Below the pieces are notes generated by a model, which saw nothing but the letters and a program-made list of their open reading frames with translations, had not been told where the DNA came from and did not search any database. DNA of 64,000 bases from Oscillospiraceae bacterium (lineage in GTDB: Bacteria > Bacillota > Clostridia > Oscillospirales > Ruminococcaceae): positions 124,001-188,000 of the forward strand of contig JAJQHJ010000003.1 of assembly GCA_021199795.1 (NCBI GenBank), given 5' to 3'. Positions 14,208 to 57,358 of this stretch are shown here, piece after piece. The position numbers and the translations under genes are program-made. Positions within the stretch are counted from its first letter, which is position 1. Every line of letters begins with the position of its first letter.

Positions 14208-14975
14208 CTACTTTCGTTTTGAAGTGACAGCCGTTCCAAATGCAAAGACAATAATTGAAAATGGAATTATGACACCAGTCTTAGGATTTTCATCAGAAGC
14301 AACGCTTGAATTCTCTTCAGAATTTTCGCTGTTCTCATCAGTATCAGCATAACCTGTGTCTAACTCACCATCTGAGGGTGTGCTTGCCTCTATTCCGTCA
14401 GGAAAGTAGTTGTAAACTGTGTCTATGCCGTCAGATGTGGTTGCTATGGTAAGAGCATCAAGAATTCTGTCATAAGTGCCATCCGAGAGTTGACATCCCA
14501 TCCCTGTTTCCCAAATAATTAGATATGAGTCTCCTTCATCCGTCTCATATACAAAAAGTCGGGGAACATTGCTATCGGACGAAACTATGTGAATTCTTTT
14601 CTGATTCCAAATTCCGCAATTATAGGTGCACTGATCATACCCTATACCATATTCGTCTCTTTGCAGGACGTCTTCAAGGATTATATCTGAATCCTCAAGC
14701 AAAATTTCAAGTACACCGCTAAGGCTTTCAATGCTGTAGTAGGTTCCACAGAAATTATAGCTTGTTGATGATGGATCATAATTACCATCGGGTATATAGA
14801 AGTTCTGACAATAACTGAAATCAGCATCTATGCTATAGTCGTATTCTTCTAAAAACTCACCAAGAGGCTGATTTTCTGCGGCAAATGTGCAGACTGTAGC
14901 AAGCATAATTGTCGTTGCAATAAGGAATACAACAGTTATTACTGATAAAATAATATGATTCCTAATTTTTGCCAT
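14208..14975 (-). CDS. Small cell-surface protein with NPKTG sorting-like tail
   Basis: A 255-residue exported protein that I do not recognise. Residues 5-33 form a signal peptide ending near TFAAE. The middle has six or more Cys/Tyr-rich segments and acidic loops. The last third is a low-complexity Ser/Asp/Glu linker, followed by ENPKTG, a hydrophobic helix and SKRK. That is the architecture of a sortase substrate with NPxTG instead of LPxTG. Three other proteins in the window end the same way. It has a consensus promoter and a long hairpin at the 5' end of its mRNA. The function is unknown; wall attachment is inferred. Confidence 0.78.
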   Translation of the reverse strand: MAKIRNHIILSVITVVFLIATTIMLATVCTFAAENQPLGEFLEEYDYSIDADFSYCQNFYIPDGNYDPSSTSYNFCGTYYSIESLSGVLEILLEDSDIILEDVLQRDEYGIGYDQCTYNCGIWNQKRIHIVSSDSNVPRLFVYETDEGDSYLIIWETGMGCQLSDGTYDRILDALTIATTSDGIDTVYNYFPDGIEASTPSDGELDTGYADTDENSENSEENSSVASDENPKTGVIIPFSIIVFAFGTAVTSKRK

Positions 14976-20594: not shown

Positions 20595-21731
20595 ATGAAA
20601 AAAGTAGTCCAGATTCTCAATATCGTCGTTTTCCTCGGCTTTCTTGTTGTGCTCGCCGTGGTCTCTTTAGTTGTGCCCGAGGACGACTTCTCAGAAACTG
20701 AGAACCGCTATCTGGCAGAAATGCCCGACTTCACTGTCTCCGATTGGTTTTCAGGGAATTATGCCGAAGACCTGACCTCCTGGCTCGACGACCATTTCGC
20801 CATGCGCTCGAACTGGATAATGCTTCACACCAGCCTTGAGCTCCTCCAGGGCAGAAACGAGGTCAACGATATCTATATCGCCGGGGATCGTCTTCTTGAG
20901 CTCACCGACGAAATCGACTATTCAGTTGTGGACAGTTCCCTTGAAGCAATTTCGTATCTCAGCAGCCTCACCGACACCCCGGTTTACGTCATGCTTGTCC
21001 CGACTGCCGCGGAAATCTATTCCGACGAGGTCTCCTACACTCAGAAGAAAGTCAGCCAGCGTGAACTCATCACCTATGCCTACGACTACATTTCTGAGAA
21101 TTCTTCCGCCCTGACGATAGACGTCTACAGCACGCTCTACTCCAGCCGTGATGAGTATATCTACTACCGCACCGACCATCACTGGACCTCGAAAGGTGCC
21201 TATCTTGCCTATTTTGCAGCTGCCGATACCATGGGCTATACCGCCTCAACTCTTGACAAGTTTGACGTAAGATATGCCTCCCACAGCTTCTATGGCTCGC
21301 TTCACTCAAGCGTCCTCTACAGCGGCATCGAAGCTGACACCATTGAGTTCTACCTGAGCAACACCCGCACGGTTTCCAAAATCTCAACTGACGAAGATGG
21401 GAACACCGTTTATTCAAGCGTCTTCGATGAGAGCTATCTTTCAAGGAAAGACAAATACCTCTGCTACCTCGGTGAGAACGTCGGAAAGACAGAGGTCGTC
21501 TCCGACTCGACCGGCGGCAAGCTCTTAGTCATCAAGGACTCCTACGCCAACTGCTTCATCCCGTTCCTTGCAGAAAACTATTCCGACATCACTGTCCTTG
21601 ACCTGAGATATCTCACGAACCCCACCACCGCTATAGGCAACCTTTCAGAATACGACGCCGTCCTCATCCTCTACAATGCCTCAAATTTCTCCGAGGACAC
21701 CAATCTCCCGAAGCTGAAGCTCATAAAATGA
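20595..21731 (+). CDS. DHHW-family (AlgX/AlgJ-like) exported protein
   Basis: A 378-residue protein with one N-terminal membrane anchor (about residues 5-27) and an extracytoplasmic SGNH-like domain. The family motif is TDHHWTSKGAYLAY, and a late KDSYANCF segment probably supplies the serine nucleophile region. It is 19 bases behind the MBOAT gene. Together they should transfer acetyl groups to a surface polysaccharide, with MBOAT bringing the acetyl group out and this protein attaching it. The substrate is unknown. Confidence 0.88.
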   Translation: MKKVVQILNIVVFLGFLVVLAVVSLVVPEDDFSETENRYLAEMPDFTVSDWFSGNYAEDLTSWLDDHFAMRSNWIMLHTSLELLQGRNEVNDIYIAGDRLLELTDEIDYSVVDSSLEAISYLSSLTDTPVYVMLVPTAAEIYSDEVSYTQKKVSQRELITYAYDYISENSSALTIDVYSTLYSSRDEYIYYRTDHHWTSKGAYLAYFAAADTMGYTASTLDKFDVRYASHSFYGSLHSSVLYSGIEADTIEFYLSNTRTVSKISTDEDGNTVYSSVFDESYLSRKDKYLCYLGENVGKTEVVSDSTGGKLLVIKDSYANCFIPFLAENYSDITVLDLRYLTNPTTAIGNLSEYDAVLILYNASNFSEDTNLPKLKLIK

Positions 21732-21770: not shown

Positions 21771-21800
21771 TTGACAAAGAGGGATGTTTTATGTTATAAT
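21771..21800 (+). promoter_or_regulatory. Sigma-A promoter of the ubiquitin-domain gene
   Basis: TTGACA (21771-21776) and TATAAT (21795-21800), perfect hexamers, 18-bp spacer; start near 21807. The strength suggests substantial expression. Confidence 0.8.
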
Positions 21801-21840: not shown

Positions 21841-21867
21841 AAGACCAATCATAAGGAGGCGCATTTT

Positions 21868-23397
21868 ATGAGGAAAAAGGTTTTGGCTATTATTTTGAGC
21901 GTATGTGTGGCGGTGTGTTTACTTACAGTAAATGTAATGGCTATGCAGATTTTTGTGAAAACACTGTCAGGCAAGACAATAACTTTAGATGTTGAACCGG
22001 CAAATACTATTGAAAACGTTAAACAAAAGATTCAGGATAAAGAGGGCTATTTGCCGGAAACGCAACGGTTAATTTATGCTGGCAAAGAATTAGAAGATGG
22101 CAAAACTCTTGCAGATTACAATATACAAAAGGAATCAACTATCCATCTTGTGCTGCGTATTGCTGACTATGTTAATGTAGTATCAGCAACGCTTTATGAC
22201 GGTCAGTACACCACTGACGGTATTTCCTCCGTAACAGTTACTGAAAGTACGCCACTTCCCACAACCGGGGGATATGCCTATTATAGTGATGGTGTGCTAT
22301 ACCTCAATAATTTTGAACTAAGCTTTGAATTCACCCAATCAGGTGCACTGATTGACTTAGGTGATAACGATGTAACCATAGATTTGTGCAATTCTGCCTC
22401 TTCTATTCTGGGAACGCAGGTTGCAATCACCACCGGAGGAAGTGTAACTATCAAAAATGGCAGTTTGTCCATAGGTGCATCTGATTATCAACTGAGTTCG
22501 GCGATTTATGCCACGGAAGATATCACTCTTGAGAATGTCACTTTTGTCTCATATAGCACCGGTAGCGCAATACATTCTTATGGCGGTAATATAACTTTAA
22601 CTAACAGCTCTGTTACAACAAATGAAGTAATCGACGCCGGCAACAATGTTGTGATTACAGACAGCGTAGTATCTGCAACTGCAACCAGATCCACATACGC
22701 AATAGCCGGCTACGGCGAAGTAACAATCAGTGGCAATGTTGACGTTACCGTTAACGGTGGCATTTTTGCGGCTGATGGCACAAGGGTCACTGCGCCAAGT
22801 GATAATTCTTTAGAAATTCACATGGGTGAATCGGCAGAAAACAACATGACTGTAACGCTTTTACCGGATGCTTCCTTGCAGGACAATCACGGAGTGTTTG
22901 AGGACTACGAATATATAACAATCAAATCTGCTGGCACACACTTCCATTCCTACACATCAACAGTCACAACAGAAGCCACATGTACCACAGATGGAGTTAT
23001 GACATATACATGTTCGTGTGGTGACAGCTATACCGAGGTTATTCCGGCAACCGGACATAGTTATGTGGTAACAGACTTCACCTGGGCTAGCGATTATAAG
23101 TCCGCAATGGTCAGGGTCGTTTGTACTGAATGTGGAGAAGAGCATGTGGAAACGGTAGATGAAGATATTTCGGAGTACATATCAGCGCAAACCGCAACTG
23201 AAACCACTGAGGAAGAAACCACCGAAGAAGTCGTAATCGATGAACCAGTCGAAGACACCGACACCGAAACCGAGCCGGATGAAGAGCCGGAAGAGACTGA
23301 AACTCCGGCGGAGACCAATCCGACAACCGGCATTGTGCTGGCAATGCTTCCGATGGCAATAGCACTTGCGGCAACTATGGCAGGGAAGAAAAAGTGA
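21868..23397 (+). CDS. Secreted, wall-anchored protein with an N-terminal eukaryote-like ubiquitin domain
   Basis: A 509-residue protein. Residues 1-25 are a signal peptide ending VMA. Residues 26-97 match ubiquitin positions 1-72; compared with human ubiquitin from memory I count 58 of 72 identical. All seven ubiquitin lysines, Leu8, Ile44, His68 and Val70 are kept, but the RLRGG tail is replaced by RIADY, so normal conjugation is impossible. Residues about 105-340 are beta-rich with regular strand turns, like a parallel beta-helix. Then come two Cys-pair segments ([21 protein letters not shown]), an acidic Thr/Glu linker, and NPTTG-hydrophobic-GKKK, a sorting-like tail. The codons are more AT-rich than in neighbouring genes. 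A host-directed role, such as binding host ubiquitin-binding proteins, is inference. Confidence 0.92.
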
Positions 23398-23556: not shown

Positions 23557-24324
23557 ATGTCAGTAGTATCAATGAAACAGCTTCTTGAAGCTGGTGTACA
23601 TTTCGGTCACCAGACAAGAAGATGGAACCCGAAGATGGCTCCCTACATCTTCACAGAAAGAAACGGAATCTATATCATCGATCTTCAGAAGACCGTGAAG
23701 AAGCTTGACGAAGCTTACATGTTCTTAAGAGACGTTTCCGCTAACGGCGGCGAGGTTCTCTTTGTCGGAACCAAGAAGCAGGCTGGCGACTCGATCAAGG
23801 AAGAGGCAACAAGAGCCGGTGCTCATTATGTAAATGCCCGTTGGCTCGGCGGTATGATGACCAACTTCGAGACCATCAAGACAAGAATCGCACGTCTTGA
23901 GCAGCTCCACAAGATGGAGTCTGACGGCACATTCGAACTTCTCCCGAAGAAAGAAGTTGCAAAGCTCACCCTCGAAATCGAGAAGCTTGAGAAGTATCTC
24001 GGCGGTATCAAGACCATGGAGAAGCTTCCCGCTGCACTCTTCATCGTTGACCCGAAGCGCGAGAAGATCGCTGTTTCTGAAGCAAGAAAATTAGGTATTC
24101 CGATAGTTGCTATCGTAGATACCAACTGCGACCCCGACGAGGTTGATTATGTAATCCCCGGTAACGATGACGCTATAAGAGCTGTCAAGCTCATTTCCAG
24201 CGCAATGGCTGATGCCATCATCGAGGGCAGACAGGGCGAGGCTAACGCTGCAGCTGAAGAGAATGATGCTGACGCATCTGGTGAAGAAGCAGCTCCCGCA
24301 GAAGAGGCTCCTGTAGAAGAGTAA
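23557..24324 (+). CDS. rpsB: 30S ribosomal protein S2
   Basis: A 255-residue ribosomal protein of the small subunit. The start [22 protein letters not shown] and the later [14 protein letters not shown] and [21 protein letters not shown] are the S2 hallmarks. The C-terminus has an Ala/Glu-rich acidic tail from about residue 228, common in Clostridia. AGGAGGA sits eight bases before the ATG. It is followed by tsf in the usual bacterial order. The folded leader suggests feedback control. Confidence 0.98.
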
Positions 24325-49799: not shown

Positions 49800-50615
49800 A
49801 TGAAAAAATACATATGCATATTCACTGCTTTCATGCTCATTTTAACTATGGCTGTAGTTAGCTTTGCCGAAGAGATAGTTCGAGAGGAAGAGATGATTAT
49901 ATCTTCTGACGATGACATGATCGAAATGGCTGAGATTGAGGTGGTTGATACTGATGAGTTTGATTATATCTTTTTGTTTGGAACAACTGATGTGAATTTC
50001 TTGAACGAGTATACTTTGCAGTATCGTATTTATACTTATGATACTGAATACACATCATTGAGCGATCTTTATGAGGCTGATGGAGATTATCTTGTTCCAG
50101 TTGTAGATGATTCAGGGAGTTTCTTAGGGTATGTCGAGGGCAATATGAATGAAGATGGTTCTTGGGAAATTGAAAGTGTTTATCAAGGAATTACTCATGA
50201 GCTTCTTTATGAGCTTATTGTGTCAGAAAATATATGTGATGGTTATTTGAACGCATTTATAGGCGGAGCCCCGTTCAATAACAACTTGGGAATCATTCTC
50301 TCAGCAGAAAATTACGATGTTTATTTTGATGTTGTTTCCTACATACAAGATATGGAAACATCCTCGCTGAGGATGGATTCAATGCAATTATCTGACTACT
50401 TCGTAAATGCAGATATAGCCGCAAATAATATTGCAGAAATGTTTGAAAATGTAGCAGAGGACAGCTCAGATTCCACTGATACCAGTAGTAAAACCACCAG
50501 TGTTGTTAAAGCAACAAATTCTAGAGACTACAATCCCGCTACAGGAGCATTTCTAGCACTTACAATACTTTCTATAGCTCTTGGCACAACTGTATTCTCT
50601 AAAAAGCACAATTAA
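49800..50615 (+). CDS. Surface protein with NPATG sorting-like tail
   Basis: A 271-residue exported protein that I do not recognise. Residues 1-24 are a signal peptide ending SFAEE. The mature domain is acidic and Tyr-rich with predicted mixed alpha/beta structure; near the end come a Ser/Asp/Thr linker (DSSDSTDTSSKTTS), NPATG, a hydrophobic helix and SKKHN. It has AAGGAGGA and follows the peptidase gene by 15 bases, so both belong to one transcript. The tail places it with the other NPxTG proteins in the window. It may be an inhibitor or partner of the peptidase, but this is a guess. Confidence 0.75.
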   Translation: MKKYICIFTAFMLILTMAVVSFAEEIVREEEMIISSDDDMIEMAEIEVVDTDEFDYIFLFGTTDVNFLNEYTLQYRIYTYDTEYTSLSDLYEADGDYLVPVVDDSGSFLGYVEGNMNEDGSWEIESVYQGITHELLYELIVSENICDGYLNAFIGGAPFNNNLGIILSAENYDVYFDVVSYIQDMETSSLRMDSMQLSDYFVNADIAANNIAEMFENVAEDSSDSTDTSSKTTSVVKATNSRDYNPATGAFLALTILSIALGTTVFSKKHN

Positions 50616-53244: not shown

Positions 53245-53270
53245 TTCCTCCTTGGCAATACAGGGAGGAA
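53245..53270 (+). promoter_or_regulatory. Hairpin covering the ribosome binding site of the LRR-lipase gene
   Basis: TTCCTCC (53245-53251) is perfectly complementary to GGAGGAA (53264-53270), which is the ribosome binding site of GTG 53276. The stem would hide it and lower translation. Confidence 0.6.
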
Positions 53271-53275
53271 TTTTT

Positions 53276-56200
53276 GTGTTAAAACTTAAGAAGCTTCTGG
53301 CGATTATAGTTGCTCTGGCACTTTCGTTTAATATGCTGAGCGTGGTGTCGGTGGCGGATACTACGGTTGTAGATTATGGAACTTGTGGCGCTAATCTTAC
53401 TTATGTGCTTGATAGCGACGGTGTTCTGACGATAAGTGGAACGGGTGACATGGGGAATTATGGGGCTCCTGGTAGTACGGTTAAATCACCATTCTATAGT
53501 AGTAGATCCTCAATAACGTCTGTTGTGATTGAATCAGGCGTGACGAGTATCGGAAGTTATACATTCTATGGATGTACTAATTTGGAAAGCGTAGTTATTC
53601 CCGATGGAATTACAAGTATCGGCTATTGTGCATTTAAGCTTTGCACTAGTTTGACAAGCGTGGTTATTCCTGATGGCATTACGAGTATCGGCGATGAGGC
53701 ATTTTTCCAGTGTACCAGTTTGACAAGTGTTACTATAGGCAGAGGAATTACAAGTATAGGCGATAGTACATTTAGGGTTTGCACTAGTTTGGAAAGCATA
53801 GTCATTCCTGATGGCGTGACGAGTATCGGCAGTTATGCATTTTATAAGTGTGCCAGTTTGACAAGCATAAACATTCCTGACAGCGTTACAAGCATAGGAG
53901 ATTTTGCATTTAGCGGTTGTAGCAGTTTAACAAGTGTAGACATTCCTAATGGAGTTACAAGCATAGAAAATTCTACATTTTCCTATTGCACTAGTTTGGA
54001 AAGTATAATCATTCCCGACAGCGTTACAAGTATAGGCAGTAATGCATTTTACGAGTGTACCAGTTTGATAAGCATAAACATTCCTGATGGTGTTACAAGT
54101 ATAAGCGATTATACATTTTCCAATTGCACCAGTTTGACAAGCATAAACATTCCTGACAGCGTTACAAGCATAGGAGATCGTGTATTTTATTACTGCACCA
54201 GTTTGACAAGCATAAACATTCCTGATAGTGTTACAAGCATAGGAGATCTTGCGTTTTTCTATTGTACCAGCTTGGAAAGCATAATTATTCCCGACGGAGT
54301 TACGAGCATAGGAAGTAATGCATTTAACCATTGTACCAGCTTGACAAGCGTAGACATTCCCGAAAGTGTTACAAGCATAGGCGAAAGTGCATTTTTCTAT
54401 TGCACCAGTTTGGGAAGCATAGTTATTCCCGATGGCGTTACAAGCATAGGAGGTTCTGCATTTTACAAATGCACCAGTTTGGAAAGCATAGTTATTCATG
54501 ACGGCGTTACAAGTATCAGCAATTCTGCATTTTACGATTGCACCAGTTTGTCAGATGTATACTACTATGGTACAGAAGATGAATGGAATGAAATAGAAAT
54601 AGGTTCAAACAATAACCCGTTATTAAATGCAACTATCCATTTTCTTGGAAGCGATGACGATGATGACGAACAACCGGATGATGATGACAAAGATATTACT
54701 TTGCCTGCTTCTGGAACTTGTGGTGAAAATCTAACTTGGTATATCGGTACTGATGGCGTTCTAACTATTTCGGGAAACGGCGATATGTATGATTACTATC
54801 TGAACACAAGTATCCCATGGTATAAATATACAGATGTTATCACAGAAATAGTTGTTGAAGAGGGAGTAACTTCTATCGGCGAGCTTGCTTTCTGCTTCTG
54901 TGATAATGTTACAATTGTTACTATTGCAGATACCGTTGATACAATCGGCGGTTCGGCTTTCTATGAATGCTCAGGAATTACTGATGTGTACTATGAGGGT
55001 ACTTATGTTGAATGGAATGACATTGATATGGGTACCTATAATGACTATTTGTTGAACGCTGATATTCATTACCTGGGCGGTTATGGTTATGATGCAGACT
55101 ATATTATTGCTGACGTTGATTTCTCTACAGGCATTGACGATATAGTTGTAAGTGTATCAACTACATGGGACGACACTTGGTTCGCAACTGACGCAACAAC
55201 ATATCAGCATGATATGGCTACAACGGCGATGGCTTTGGCTGGTGCAACATATGTGGCAGATTCGTCAGGCAATCTGAGTAGCGAAAGCATAACAGAAGCT
55301 TTGACAGCTTTCAATTTCACCAACGTTGAGCCGCATAACTATGACTATTCTTTATCTGAGGATGATAACGATGTAGTTGCATATACATTTGCATACAAGA
55401 CCATGTATCTTGATGGCGAATACACAGAGGTTGTGATGATCGCCATCAAAGGAACGAGTTCAAACGAAGAATGGTATAGTAATTTTAATCTTGGATTTAG
55501 TGGAAACCATAAGGGCTTTAACAAAGCTTCTAATGAGTTGTTAGCTTCTTTGAAGACATATCTAAAGGATTTGTCTGTAGGCAGTGATGTTAAGTTCTTT
55601 GTGACAGGTCATAGCCGAGGTGCAGCTGTTGCTAATCTTGTGGCAAAAGACTTGACAGATTCGTATGGCTCTGGCGATGTTTATGCTTATACATTTGCTT
55701 GCCCGTCAACATCTGTCAGTGCGACATCAACTGGATACGAAAACATTGTCAATATCTGTAGTGGTGAAGACTTTATTACAACGTTGCCCCTCGAAGATTG
55801 GGGCTTTGGAAGATACGGAATAACTCTCAATTTGCCCAGTAGAAGTTACTTCAGTTCCGCATTTTATGATGAATACCTATCGTCGATGTCAAGCACATTT
55901 GAATACATCACCGGTGAGGAATTTTCAACTTATTCCAATGGCACTCAGCAAGTCGATGAAATATGCTCGTACGTTTACTCACTGGCAAACTCAAGGAATA
56001 ATTATTACAATGCTTTATACTGGATAGGCGTTGACGGTCAGTATATGTCGATGAGTGAGTACTTTAATGAAGTAGCAGCACTTCTGATAAATGGATTGAG
56101 TGAACTGTTAAGCGTCGGTAATAGTTCTGTCGGTGCTTACTATAAAATTACAAAGTTCTTTTTAGTCAACTACATGCTTAATCCGAACGTAGCAATGAAC

Positions 56201-57358
56201 CATTGCATGGCTTCTTACTACAGTTGGATGTCTACATTAAGTTCAGACCAGCTCTTTGGCAATTTGAATACTGACTCTAAGTCATCTTACAAACGAATGA
56301 CTGTTGCTTGCCCTGTAGATGTATACGTCTACAATGAAAATGATGAGTTAGTTGCGGCAGTTGTCAATGGGGAAATCACAGTCGATACCTTAGCAGTTAC
56401 TGTGGAAGATGACGTAAAGACAATAGATTTGCCTTGCGATCAGGAGTACCGGATTGTTATAACAGCATACGATGAGGGAACCGTAGATTACACTGTTTCT
56501 CTCATGGGCACTACTTCTTCAATCCCATCTTACATAGCGGAATTTTCAAACATAGAAGTTGTTTCTGGTGATGAGTTATCGGGAACTATAGTTGTTGCAC
56601 AAAGCACAACTGATTCTGACTACGATCTGACTAAAAACCAGACAGAAACGCTTCAAGCTACTGTCAGCGAGTATGTTTACGAGGGCTATGCCTATACTGT
56701 TCAGGATATAACGGATATATTAGGATCAATAGATTGGACGGTTACACAGTCGTATGTCGATGAGTATAGCACAGGAAGCACTGAAGAGTCTATCGAGGCG
56801 ATGATAGCTGATTTGATAAGCAATCTCGGCTTAGACAACTATGTTGTTGCAAACGTCTATAGTGTTATTGATTCTGTTGCCGGTGATTCAAGCAATGTAG
56901 CCGGAACCGACGGAAGCTATTCGGTGACTTTTACGATTACAATTGGTAGTGATTCCGATACGTTAGATATTACTGGTGTGATAACTGCAACGGCGTATAA
57001 ATCAACCTCCGTTTGCACCCATACCACCACTAAAGCCGTCAAAGAGAATATCACTGAGGCAACGGCGACAACTGATGGCTCATATGACTTGGTAATCTAT
57101 TGCACAGAATGTGGCTTGGAGTTAAGTCGTTCACACGTTACTGTTGAGGCTACTGGTGAAGATAGTGATGACACCATATCCGAAGAAGTCACCATCGTCG
57201 ACCCCATCGAAGACACCGACACCAGTACTGAGGAAGATGAGCCTGAATCCGAGCCGGAGGTTTCTGAAAGTGAAACCAACCCGACAACCGGAATTGCAAT
57301 CTCACTTCTCCCGATGGCAATCGCCGCTCTCGTAGTGATTTCTTCAAAGAGAAGATAA
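53276..57358 (+). CDS. Giant surface protein: BspA-type leucine-rich repeats fused to a class 3 lipase, with NPTTG tail
   Basis: A 1360-residue exported protein. GTG 53276 follows AGGGAGGAA; the signal peptide ends near VVSVADT. Fifteen 23-residue BspA/LRR_5 repeats of the type SLTSINIPDSVTSIGD fill about residues 80-430, then an acidic linker and two more repeats (to about 600). Next is an alpha/beta-hydrolase of the fungal lipase 3 type: oxyanion strand AIKGTSSNEEW, nucleophile Ser780 in TGHSRGAA, Asp in GEDFITTLP and His in MNHCMASYY. Two further beta-rich regions, a Cys-pair segment, an acidic Glu/Asp/Thr linker and NPTTG-hydrophobic-SKRR follow. It probably binds and degrades a lipid or ester on host or plant material. 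Confidence 0.9.
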   Translation: MLKLKKLLAIIVALALSFNMLSVVSVADTTVVDYGTCGANLTYVLDSDGVLTISGTGDMGNYGAPGSTVKSPFYSSRSSITSVVIESGVTSIGSYTFYGCTNLESVVIPDGITSIGYCAFKLCTSLTSVVIPDGITSIGDEAFFQCTSLTSVTIGRGITSIGDSTFRVCTSLESIVIPDGVTSIGSYAFYKCASLTSINIPDSVTSIGDFAFSGCSSLTSVDIPNGVTSIENSTFSYCTSLESIIIPDSVTSIGSNAFYECTSLISINIPDGVTSISDYTFSNCTSLTSINIPDSVTSIGDRVFYYCTSLTSINIPDSVTSIGDLAFFYCTSLESIIIPDGVTSIGSNAFNHCTSLTSVDIPESVTSIGESAFFYCTSLGSIVIPDGVTSIGGSAFYKCTSLESIVIHDGVTSISNSAFYDCTSLSDVYYYGTEDEWNEIEIGSNNNPLLNATIHFLGSDDDDDEQPDDDDKDITLPASGTCGENLTWYIGTDGVLTISGNGDMYDYYLNTSIPWYKYTDVITEIVVEEGVTSIGELAFCFCDNVTIVTIADTVDTIGGSAFYECSGITDVYYEGTYVEWNDIDMGTYNDYLLNADIHYLGGYGYDADYIIADVDFSTGIDDIVVSVSTTWDDTWFATDATTYQHDMATTAMALAGATYVADSSGNLSSESITEALTAFNFTNVEPHNYDYSLSEDDNDVVAYTFAYKTMYLDGEYTEVVMIAIKGTSSNEEWYSNFNLGFSGNHKGFNKASNELLASLKTYLKDLSVGSDVKFFVTGHSRGAAVANLVAKDLTDSYGSGDVYAYTFACPSTSVSATSTGYENIVNICSGEDFITTLPLEDWGFGRYGITLNLPSRSYFSSAFYDEYLSSMSSTFEYITGEEFSTYSNGTQQVDEICSYVYSLANSRNNYYNALYWIGVDGQYMSMSEYFNEVAALLINGLSELLSVGNSSVGAYYKITKFFLVNYMLNPNVAMNHCMASYYSWMSTLSSDQLFGNLNTDSKSSYKRMTVACPVDVYVYNENDELVAAVVNGEITVDTLAVTVEDDVKTIDLPCDQEYRIVITAYDEGTVDYTVSLMGTTSSIPSYIAEFSNIEVVSGDELSGTIVVAQSTTDSDYDLTKNQTETLQATVSEYVYEGYAYTVQDITDILGSIDWTVTQSYVDEYSTGSTEESIEAMIADLISNLGLDNYVVANVYSVIDSVAGDSSNVAGTDGSYSVTFTITIGSDSDTLDITGVITATAYKSTSVCTHTTTKAVKENITEATATTDGSYDLVIYCTECGLELSRSHVTVEATGEDSDDTISEEVTIVDPIEDTDTSTEEDEPESEPEVSESETNPTTGIAISLLPMAIAALVVISSKRR
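53540..54560 (+). repeat. 69-bp coding tandem repeats (LRR array)
   Basis: Fifteen copies of a 69-bp unit code for the LRR_5 repeats. Neighbouring units near 54130-54270 are nearly identical at DNA level over more than 50 bases, so copy number may change by recombination or slippage. The high order also keeps a long open frame on the opposite strand, which is not a gene. Confidence 0.85.

Follow-up and report, generated by a model that had tools for sequence, protein, structure and literature searches.

A complete open reading frame in the 64,000-nucleotide stretch of Oscillospiraceae DNA analysed here (the window) encodes a predicted wall-anchored surface protein with ubiquitin at its predicted mature N-terminus, an assignment supported by the ORF itself, by Pfam and by an AlphaFold2 model. 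Ubiquitin is the textbook tag protein of eukaryotes (animals, plants and protists). The gene (21868..23397, +) specifies 509 aa, referred to below as the window protein, in the order signal peptide, ubiquitin residues 1-72, beta-rich stalk and NPTTG sorting signal. Comparison with related genomes indicates that ubiquitin here is a swapped head on an existing surface-protein slot, and that the window protein is one member of a large, scattered class. Both points were missing from the initial annotation of this DNA, whose interpretation was to that extent incomplete.

The gene is preceded by a promoter-like TTGACA-18-TATAAT (21771..21800, +; 12/12 consensus match) and by a ribosome-binding site, AAGGAGG, read directly from the sequence (21853..21859, +). 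A 25-aa signal peptide (21868..21942, +), with predicted cleavage between VMA and MQIF, was recognised from the sequence and by a heuristic rule, and the N-termini of syntenic congener genes are similar. The ubiquitin domain (21943..22158, +; residues 1-72, without the LRGG tail) is defined by Pfam, PDB alignment, the identity count and the AlphaFold2 model. It is followed by a linker and a beta-strand-rich stalk (22159..22818, +), delimited by AlphaFold2 strands at residues 135-301 and by congener matches; from about residue 99 on, the protein is 33-40% identical to parts of congener proteins. The stalk had no Pfam match, and "beta-helix-like" is a label by inspection only. The same applies to a second beta module (HSYTSTV...EHVETV; 22945..23160, +; six strands with block pLDDT 82-89 in AlphaFold2) at about residues 362-431, which had no Pfam match and is "Ig-like" by inspection only. 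An acidic Thr/Glu-rich linker (23197..23316, +), identified from the sequence and with pLDDT <50, leads to the sorting signal (23317..23394, +), in which NPTTG, a hydrophobic segment and KKK form a tail like those of syntenic and paralogous proteins. The AlphaFold2 model as a whole (mean pLDDT 68.9, pTM 0.48) shows a signal helix, a confident ubiquitin, the strand-rich stalk, the six-strand module and a disordered acidic tail; by blocks of ten residues, pLDDT is 92-96 over residues 31-90, 70-94 over residues 161-300 and <50 from residue 441.

The initial annotation had read residues 26-97 as ubiquitin 1-72, and a gap-free alignment to PDB ubiquitin sequences bears this out. Pfam PF00240 (ubiquitin) matches residues 28-97 with an E value of 4.9e-28 and 97.1 bits (cut-off 25.4), covering profile positions 1-70 of 72; the sole other Pfam match, Rad60-SLD, is a related ubiquitin-like model that overlaps the same stretch. 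AlphaFold2 gives residues 26-96 the beta-grasp order strand-strand-helix-strand-strand. Identity to human ubiquitin, put earlier at about 58 of 72, was counted as 58/72, and the seven lysines (6, 11, 27, 29, 33, 48 and 63) and the Leu8/Ile44/His68/Val70 patch, both said to be kept, are fully present in the translation. The proposed location of ubiquitin at the mature N-terminus agrees with the position of Met1 at the predicted signal-peptide cut site, and the proposed beta-rich stalk and wall anchor agree with the AlphaFold2 strands, the NPTTG tail and the presence of sortases, anchoring being predicted. The domain ends in ...LVLR-IADY, where IADY at positions 73-76 replaces LRGG; the exposed C-terminal Gly-Gly of a conjugatable modifier is absent (LVLR-IADYV). 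A search of the own genome for E2 enzymes (PF00179) gave no match, and control genomes were equally silent.

ThiS, MoaD and Bil/Bub-type modules are cytoplasmic, have a GG end and act with an E1-like enzyme. The window ubiquitin has the beta-grasp fold in common with them, but the window protein has a signal peptide, no GG and, as neighbours, a DHHW protein gene and rpsB, and the ThiS/MoaD alternative that had been raised for the domain fails on these points. Contamination by eukaryotic sequence, the other alternative raised, is unlikely, because the ORF runs uninterrupted on a contig of 386,866 bases in a genome given as 99.45% complete, because residues 360-509 have paralogues in that genome, and because promoter and leader are nearly those of a congener gene (L171).

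The features of a sortase-anchored NPXTG protein were found throughout: signal peptide, NPXTG motif, hydrophobic segment, positive tail and genomic sortases, of which the own genome has five (PF04203 matches above the Pfam cut-off). None of the NCBIfam anchor models matched the window protein. From these signatures we infer Sec-type cleavage, wall anchoring and display. The own genome holds one copy of the ubiquitin gene, two paralogous proteins that are 64-68% identical over window residues 360-509, a region that includes the second beta module, and a third protein with 48% identity over residues 327-509. The window also encodes three further proteins with NPXTG-like tails, at 14208-14975 (-), 49800-50615 (+) and 53252-57358 (+), the last of which has BspA-type leucine-rich repeats and a class 3 lipase domain.

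Two flanking genes served as synteny markers: upstream a DHHW/AlgX-like protein gene (20595..21731, +), recognised by Pfam and present in six congeners, and downstream rpsB (23557..24324, +), recognised by Pfam and congener synteny. Ubiquitin is present in one of 31 genomes (species) of the genus, and the part following it has matches in all 31. Among 18 stretches upstream of rpsB, taken from 18 of the 30 congeners, six (L165, L166, L168, L169, L171 and L172) have a surface gene that lacks ubiquitin between the DHHW gene and rpsB, and these surface genes have a signal peptide or tail similar to that of the window gene; L168 contains masked bases and two ORFs, L172 consists of two ORFs, and the L166 ORF stops short of an anchor. 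Nine stretches have other genes upstream of rpsB (L167, L174, L175, L176 and L178-L182), L170 and L177 are cut off by the end of their contigs, and in L173 the search motif used found no rpsB ORF. Pfam scans of L165, L166, L169 and L171 placed BspA-type leucine-rich repeats (LRR_5) at the head of the L166 and L169 proteins, with a weak GLUG match in L165 and no family in L171.

The syntenic genes of L166, L171 and L172 also have a promoter-like site of the TTGACA-18-TATAAT type, the L171 leader being nearly identical to that of the window gene, and a different promoter-like site is found in L165, L168 and L169. In L187, a congener protein encoded elsewhere in its genome, a signal peptide and LRR are followed by a related stalk, which shares 33% identity with the window protein starting at window residue 99, and by an NPATG tail. 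Congener synteny, the LRR heads and the related stalk of L187 together argue that ubiquitin occupies the position of other heads. The BspA-type LRR surface proteins of the genus share with the window protein the locus, similar signal peptides and tails, and related stalk modules, but their head is LRR and not ubiquitin. Within the window gene, GC content is 0.366 in ubiquitin, 0.373 in the signal peptide and 0.453 in the remainder, and the poorer GC of the first two fits a later import.

The extent of the class was estimated by scanning 84,980 species genomes, which yielded 310 confirmed ubiquitin stretches. Search patterns were derived from the query, and the 80 genome loci kept were the ones among the 310 that resemble it most, so that conservation is overstated in this set. 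The signal-peptide form was found in 68 of these best 80. Their labels span 12 named phyla, including archaea, with one locus lacking a phylum, and are most often Pseudomonadota (25) and Bacillota (18); bin labels can err, as L030, L038 and L055 are labelled otherwise yet are of the autotransporter kind of Burkholderiales loci. Across 96 non-redundant ORFs (the best 80 of 310 loci plus other searches), a signal-peptide-like stretch is present in 76 by the loose version of our rule and in 73 by the stricter version, which places ubiquitin Met1 at residue +1; the rule is a heuristic and not a trained predictor, and random positions in 1,362 neighbouring ORFs gave 8.5% and 5.1%, respectively.

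Samples drawn with the profile and not with the query, each of which counts the own genome, showed matches in 11 of the 297 family genomes (8 of the 11 with the signal-peptide form), in 5 of 391 genomes of the class above the cut-off (5/5; two more below it) and in 4 of 398 genomes of the phylum above the cut-off (2/4; one more below it). The signal-peptide form is carried by a complete Ruminococcus albus 7 plasmid and by L041, a Verrucomicrobia record whose title reads complete genome, and other loci come from records titled with strain names (e.g. L018, L028, L057 and L077). L007 (genome G186), of the same GTDB family as the window, has the same ubiquitin protein as R. albus KH2T6 (L075), which makes the source of the window a relative of Ruminococcus. 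Judging by record titles, the class probably comes from habitats (rumen, gut, lakes, sea and soil) in which protists also live.

Ubiquitins of other kinds were also encountered. L039, L066, L068 and L090 are actinobacterial ubiquitin domains with no recognised signal peptide, and L039, L066 and L090 have several neighbouring genes in common. L022, L025, L051, L067, L076 and L093 are ubiquitins without a signal peptide and with GG intact, L067 being a four-unit polyubiquitin in a Nitrospinota bin; eukaryotic or viral bin contamination is likely for some of these six.

The bodies that carry the ubiquitin head differ widely. Pfam scans of 74 ubiquitin proteins (without L003, L004, L006, L017 and duplicates, and with L028 and L078) found Autotransporter in 17, SLH in 5, IPTL-CTERM in 4, Por_Secre_tail in 3, OMP_b-brl in 3 and dockerin in 2, and many of the remaining bodies had no nameable anchor. 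These matches fit lineage-specific exported proteins (autotransporters, S-layer, IPTL-CTERM and T9SS proteins). Free secreted forms occur as well, two Dyella proteins (L044 and L062) stopping at or near the ubiquitin end. L020, L030, L038, L057, L071 and L077 form a conserved autotransporter group; in all six, the reading frame reaches N-terminally beyond the signal peptide, and this extension, which has a similar ...GI.FTSTV-like stretch, is perhaps an extended signal peptide.

When neighbouring ORFs of at least 100 aa were compared, the commonest cluster across loci reached 7 of 83. In 7 of the 83 loci (L020, L029, L030, L038, L057, L071 and L077), the gene for a ubiquitin-headed autotransporter or IPTL protein lies next to a conserved gene of about 330 aa (e.g. 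L057:7195-8193), whose product is a possible partner of the ubiquitin-headed proteins. It had no match of note in Pfam, PDB or PADLOC; identification as a SET-domain methyltransferase was dropped, the best Pfam E value being 0.093 to an unrelated family and no PDB match being credible. A link to phage or defence was also considered. PHROGs, PADLOC and the phage collection gave no match, six loci only lie on viral contigs, three of them near-copies, and virus-borne spread is not supported.

Single members of the class are already annotated in databases, for example WP_013483628.1 of R. albus 7 (RUMAL_RS21475, "ubiquitin family protein"), which is known to us from annotation only. It is like the window protein in having a signal peptide, Met1 at the predicted cut and a further body, but that body is a small domain common to other predicted secreted proteins of its cluster, with no beta stalk or sorting signal. 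This body shares about 43% identity with the RS18540 product of the same gene cluster, and a neighbour of the ubiquitin gene has a weak match, below the cut-off, to the spore coat U family. The gene stands within a run of small predicted secreted proteins (L134:5383-12273), several of which have the same C-terminal domain as the ubiquitin protein; an NPATG-type protein follows downstream, and this run possibly encodes a pilus-like surface fibre. When two R. albus strains are compared, pS is 0.37 in the ubiquitin gene (L134:9923-10663 vs. L075:5923-6651), against 0.05-0.06 in its two direct neighbours, a sequence pattern that looks as if alleles had been exchanged at this gene. Two genes further out are also more divergent than those neighbours (pS 0.23 and 0.52), so that the ubiquitin gene is not alone in its variability.

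Constraint was assessed in 77 domains, selected by the signal-peptide rule with L017, L028 and L078 added by eye; L004 was too short, and the duplicates L005, L007, L095 and L096 and the divergent L098 were excluded. Median pairwise pS is 0.89 and median pN is 0.10. GC3 of the domain tracks locus GC (r 0.92), and median identity to human ubiquitin among the signal-peptide domains analysed is 65/72. In 13 of 16 gene pairs of our own choosing, ubiquitin has a lower pN/pS than the remainder of the gene, the three exceptions being the closest pairs; many of the pS values are close to saturation. Ubiquitin identity exceeds rest-of-gene identity in 74 of 78 gene pairs, some of them without signal peptides; two of the four exceptions reflect a two-residue offset of L028, and the others are L041 against a tandem copy and L017/L092.

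Mean entropy in the 77 domains, for residue groups fixed before the entropy output and after the sequences had been seen, is 0.22 bits for the seven lysines, 0.26 for the core, 0.37 for the TEK box, 0.40 for the D58 patch, 0.41 for the Ile44 patch, 0.60 for the Ile36 patch and 0.68 for other surface. All seven lysines are kept in 64/77 domains and L8/I44/H68/V70 in 61/77, so the binding surface is not untouched. A permutation p-value for hot-spot against other surface residues was set aside, its residue list having been drawn up with the entropies already in view. Towards the C-terminus the residues kept, out of 77, are H68 in 76, V70 in 65, L71 in 69, R72 in 54, L73 in 37, R74 in 30, G75 in 20 and G76 in 8, and both glycines are present in 5/77 signal-peptide forms vs. 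8/18 domains without a signal peptide. Given the few replacements and the decay of the tail, selection seems to maintain the fold and much of the binding surface, and not conjugation, in these loci, which are biased to query-like forms.

A tree of 97 rows and 72 columns, from which L011, L039b and L051b were left out besides the duplicates and L098 named above, was mostly unresolved, with 68 of 94 inner branches open and one starred. The window domain groups with L006 of the same GTDB family (support 88), followed by L015 and L035, both labelled uncultured Ruminococcus. The ubiquitins nearest to it are bacterial signal-peptide forms, and Y36 occurs in two of the 77 domains, those of the window and L006. 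These nearest forms and the shared Y36 suggest that the last transfer step was probably from bacterium to bacterium, the ultimate source of the ubiquitin being presumably eukaryotic. Of the transfer proposed in the initial annotation, the eukaryote-type character of the ubiquitin stands; a direct step from a eukaryotic host or protozoan as the last one is not supported by the tree, in which five eukaryotic rows are scattered among bacterial rows.

The closest known protein is the secreted BfUbb (Ubb) of Bacteroides fragilis, for which the passages of PMC3352274 drawn on here describe a signal sequence, missing glycines, a C-terminal Cys and an E1 adduct, and those of PMC5705921 secretion, cleavage at ubiquitin residue 1 and antagonism; the latter paper, from 2017 and on the only bacterial case studied, counts B. 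fragilis among a few bacteria that have a protein of this kind. Like the window protein, BfUbb is a eukaryote-type ubiquitin behind a bacterial signal peptide, lacks the terminal GG and is exported (by prediction, in the window protein). BfUbb is a free, antibacterial mature protein of 76 residues with 63% human identity and a C-terminal Cys, whereas the 509 aa of the window protein form a fusion that has 58/72 identity, 412 residues after the domain and a sorting signal; the window protein has the predicted signal-peptide cut at residue 1 and no free ubiquitin-sized form. The secreted ubiquitin of Globodera rostochiensis, as presented in the passages of PMC5705921, is also comparable in its added signal peptide and its use outside the producing cell, but it is a eukaryotic effector whose 12-residue extension is cut off and which is not surface-anchored. 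The portions consulted of PMC4378268, PMC12853789 and PMC9373040 contain no further secreted bacterial ubiquitin. A search of the open-access literature, which leaves most subscription papers and bioRxiv outside, gave, among the matches listed, no title that deals with surface-anchored fusions of ubiquitin in bacteria at large.

We consider it somewhat probable that the window ubiquitin is a displayed, non-conjugatable recognition head, swapped into a surface slot, with a partner that is most likely eukaryotic. The protein would be exported by Sec and cut by signal peptidase before ubiquitin Met1; sortase would then join the NPTTG end to the wall, so that the folded ubiquitin at the outer tip of the beta stalk would offer an extracellular partner its ordinary binding surface. 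The head would have been mounted by recombination in the slot where congeners bear others, such as BspA-type leucine-rich repeats, and the partner would be derived from eukaryotes, whether grazing or symbiotic protists, host cells or debris. Because the LRGG tail is gone, the head would not be conjugatable and deubiquitinases should not release it. The architecture, the other heads in the slot, the tail loss and the surface conservation are apparent from the sequences; binding of ubiquitin-interacting proteins outside the cell would fit the conserved surface, and the similar proteins in many other bacteria suggest that the ubiquitin tip touches something outside the cell. The identity of the partner is conjectural: a protist or host protein is favoured, since the surface kept is the one read by eukaryotic ubiquitin-binding proteins, and a rival bacterium is possible. 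Against this reading stand the variation of the Ile36 patch, almost like that of other surface (0.60 vs. 0.68 bits), and the action of secreted BfUbb on bacteria (cited passages of PMC5705921). More tentatively, and with some doubt, the reading may be extended to the class: ubiquitin would be a portable prokaryotic surface head, stripped of its tail, repeatedly re-mounted on lineage scaffolds (sortase stalks, S-layer proteins, autotransporters, T9SS cargo and pilin-like subunits) and engaging protist or host ubiquitin-binding molecules.

The displayed ubiquitin could instead act as a BfUbb-type interbacterial weapon that touches or enters neighbouring bacteria and inhibits a target in their envelope, for example a peptidyl-prolyl isomerase. 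BfUbb itself has a signal peptide cut at residue 1 and no GG and antagonises some B. fragilis strains (passages of PMC5705921), its target side is indicated by Jiang et al., who tie sensitivity to a Tyr in peptidyl-prolyl isomerase (as cited in part of PMC12396204), and free secreted forms are found in our set too (the two Dyella proteins). We nevertheless regard a weapon as unlikely. The window protein is predicted to be anchored and 17/74 scanned relatives have an outer-membrane autotransporter domain, so that many members of the class are not free; the domains match human ubiquitin at a median of 65/72 residues, vs. 63% identity for BfUbb (part of PMC3352274); and no neighbour is widely common, the top cluster standing at 7/83 in a comparison of ORFs of at least 100 aa, a size below which small immunity genes would fall.

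Ubiquitin folds fast and resists proteases, properties that would suit a structural cap, that is, a stable N-terminal plug that aids folding or survival of the exported protein and whose surface has no partner. The widely differing bodies, for which one common partner is unneeded, and the variable Ile36 patch point the same way, but a mere cap should drift at its surface, and the hot spots other than the Ile36 patch vary less (Ile44 patch 0.41 and seven lysines 0.22 bits, against 0.68 for other surface and 0.26 for the core), which makes a cap quite improbable. Recent neutral capture, in which eukaryotic ubiquitin fragments come by chance to lie behind signal peptides and persist briefly, would agree with the scattered distribution (1/31 species of the genus, 11/297 family genomes) and with the GC-poor ubiquitin and signal peptide, as in a later import. 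It is hard to credit when, across the class, codon composition tracks that of the bacterial host (r 0.92) and synonymous sites approach saturation with few replacements, and when conserved gene families exist, such as the six-member autotransporter group. An assembly or contamination artefact has next to no probability: some loci that lack a signal peptide and have GG intact do look eukaryotic, including the polyubiquitin of L067, but the window gene shares its leader, type of signal peptide, stalk and anchor with the genus, and the signal-peptide form is present on the complete R. albus 7 plasmid, in the L041 complete genome record and in the strain-named records.

With a displayed recognition head as the preferred reading, the class presents ubiquitin at the predicted mature N-terminus of proteins in 12 labelled phyla, with the tagging part mostly lost and the binding part mostly retained. 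Should the head have a partner, this would pose a testable question about the role of a non-conjugatable, displayed ubiquitin in the encounters of bacteria with protists, hosts and other bacteria.
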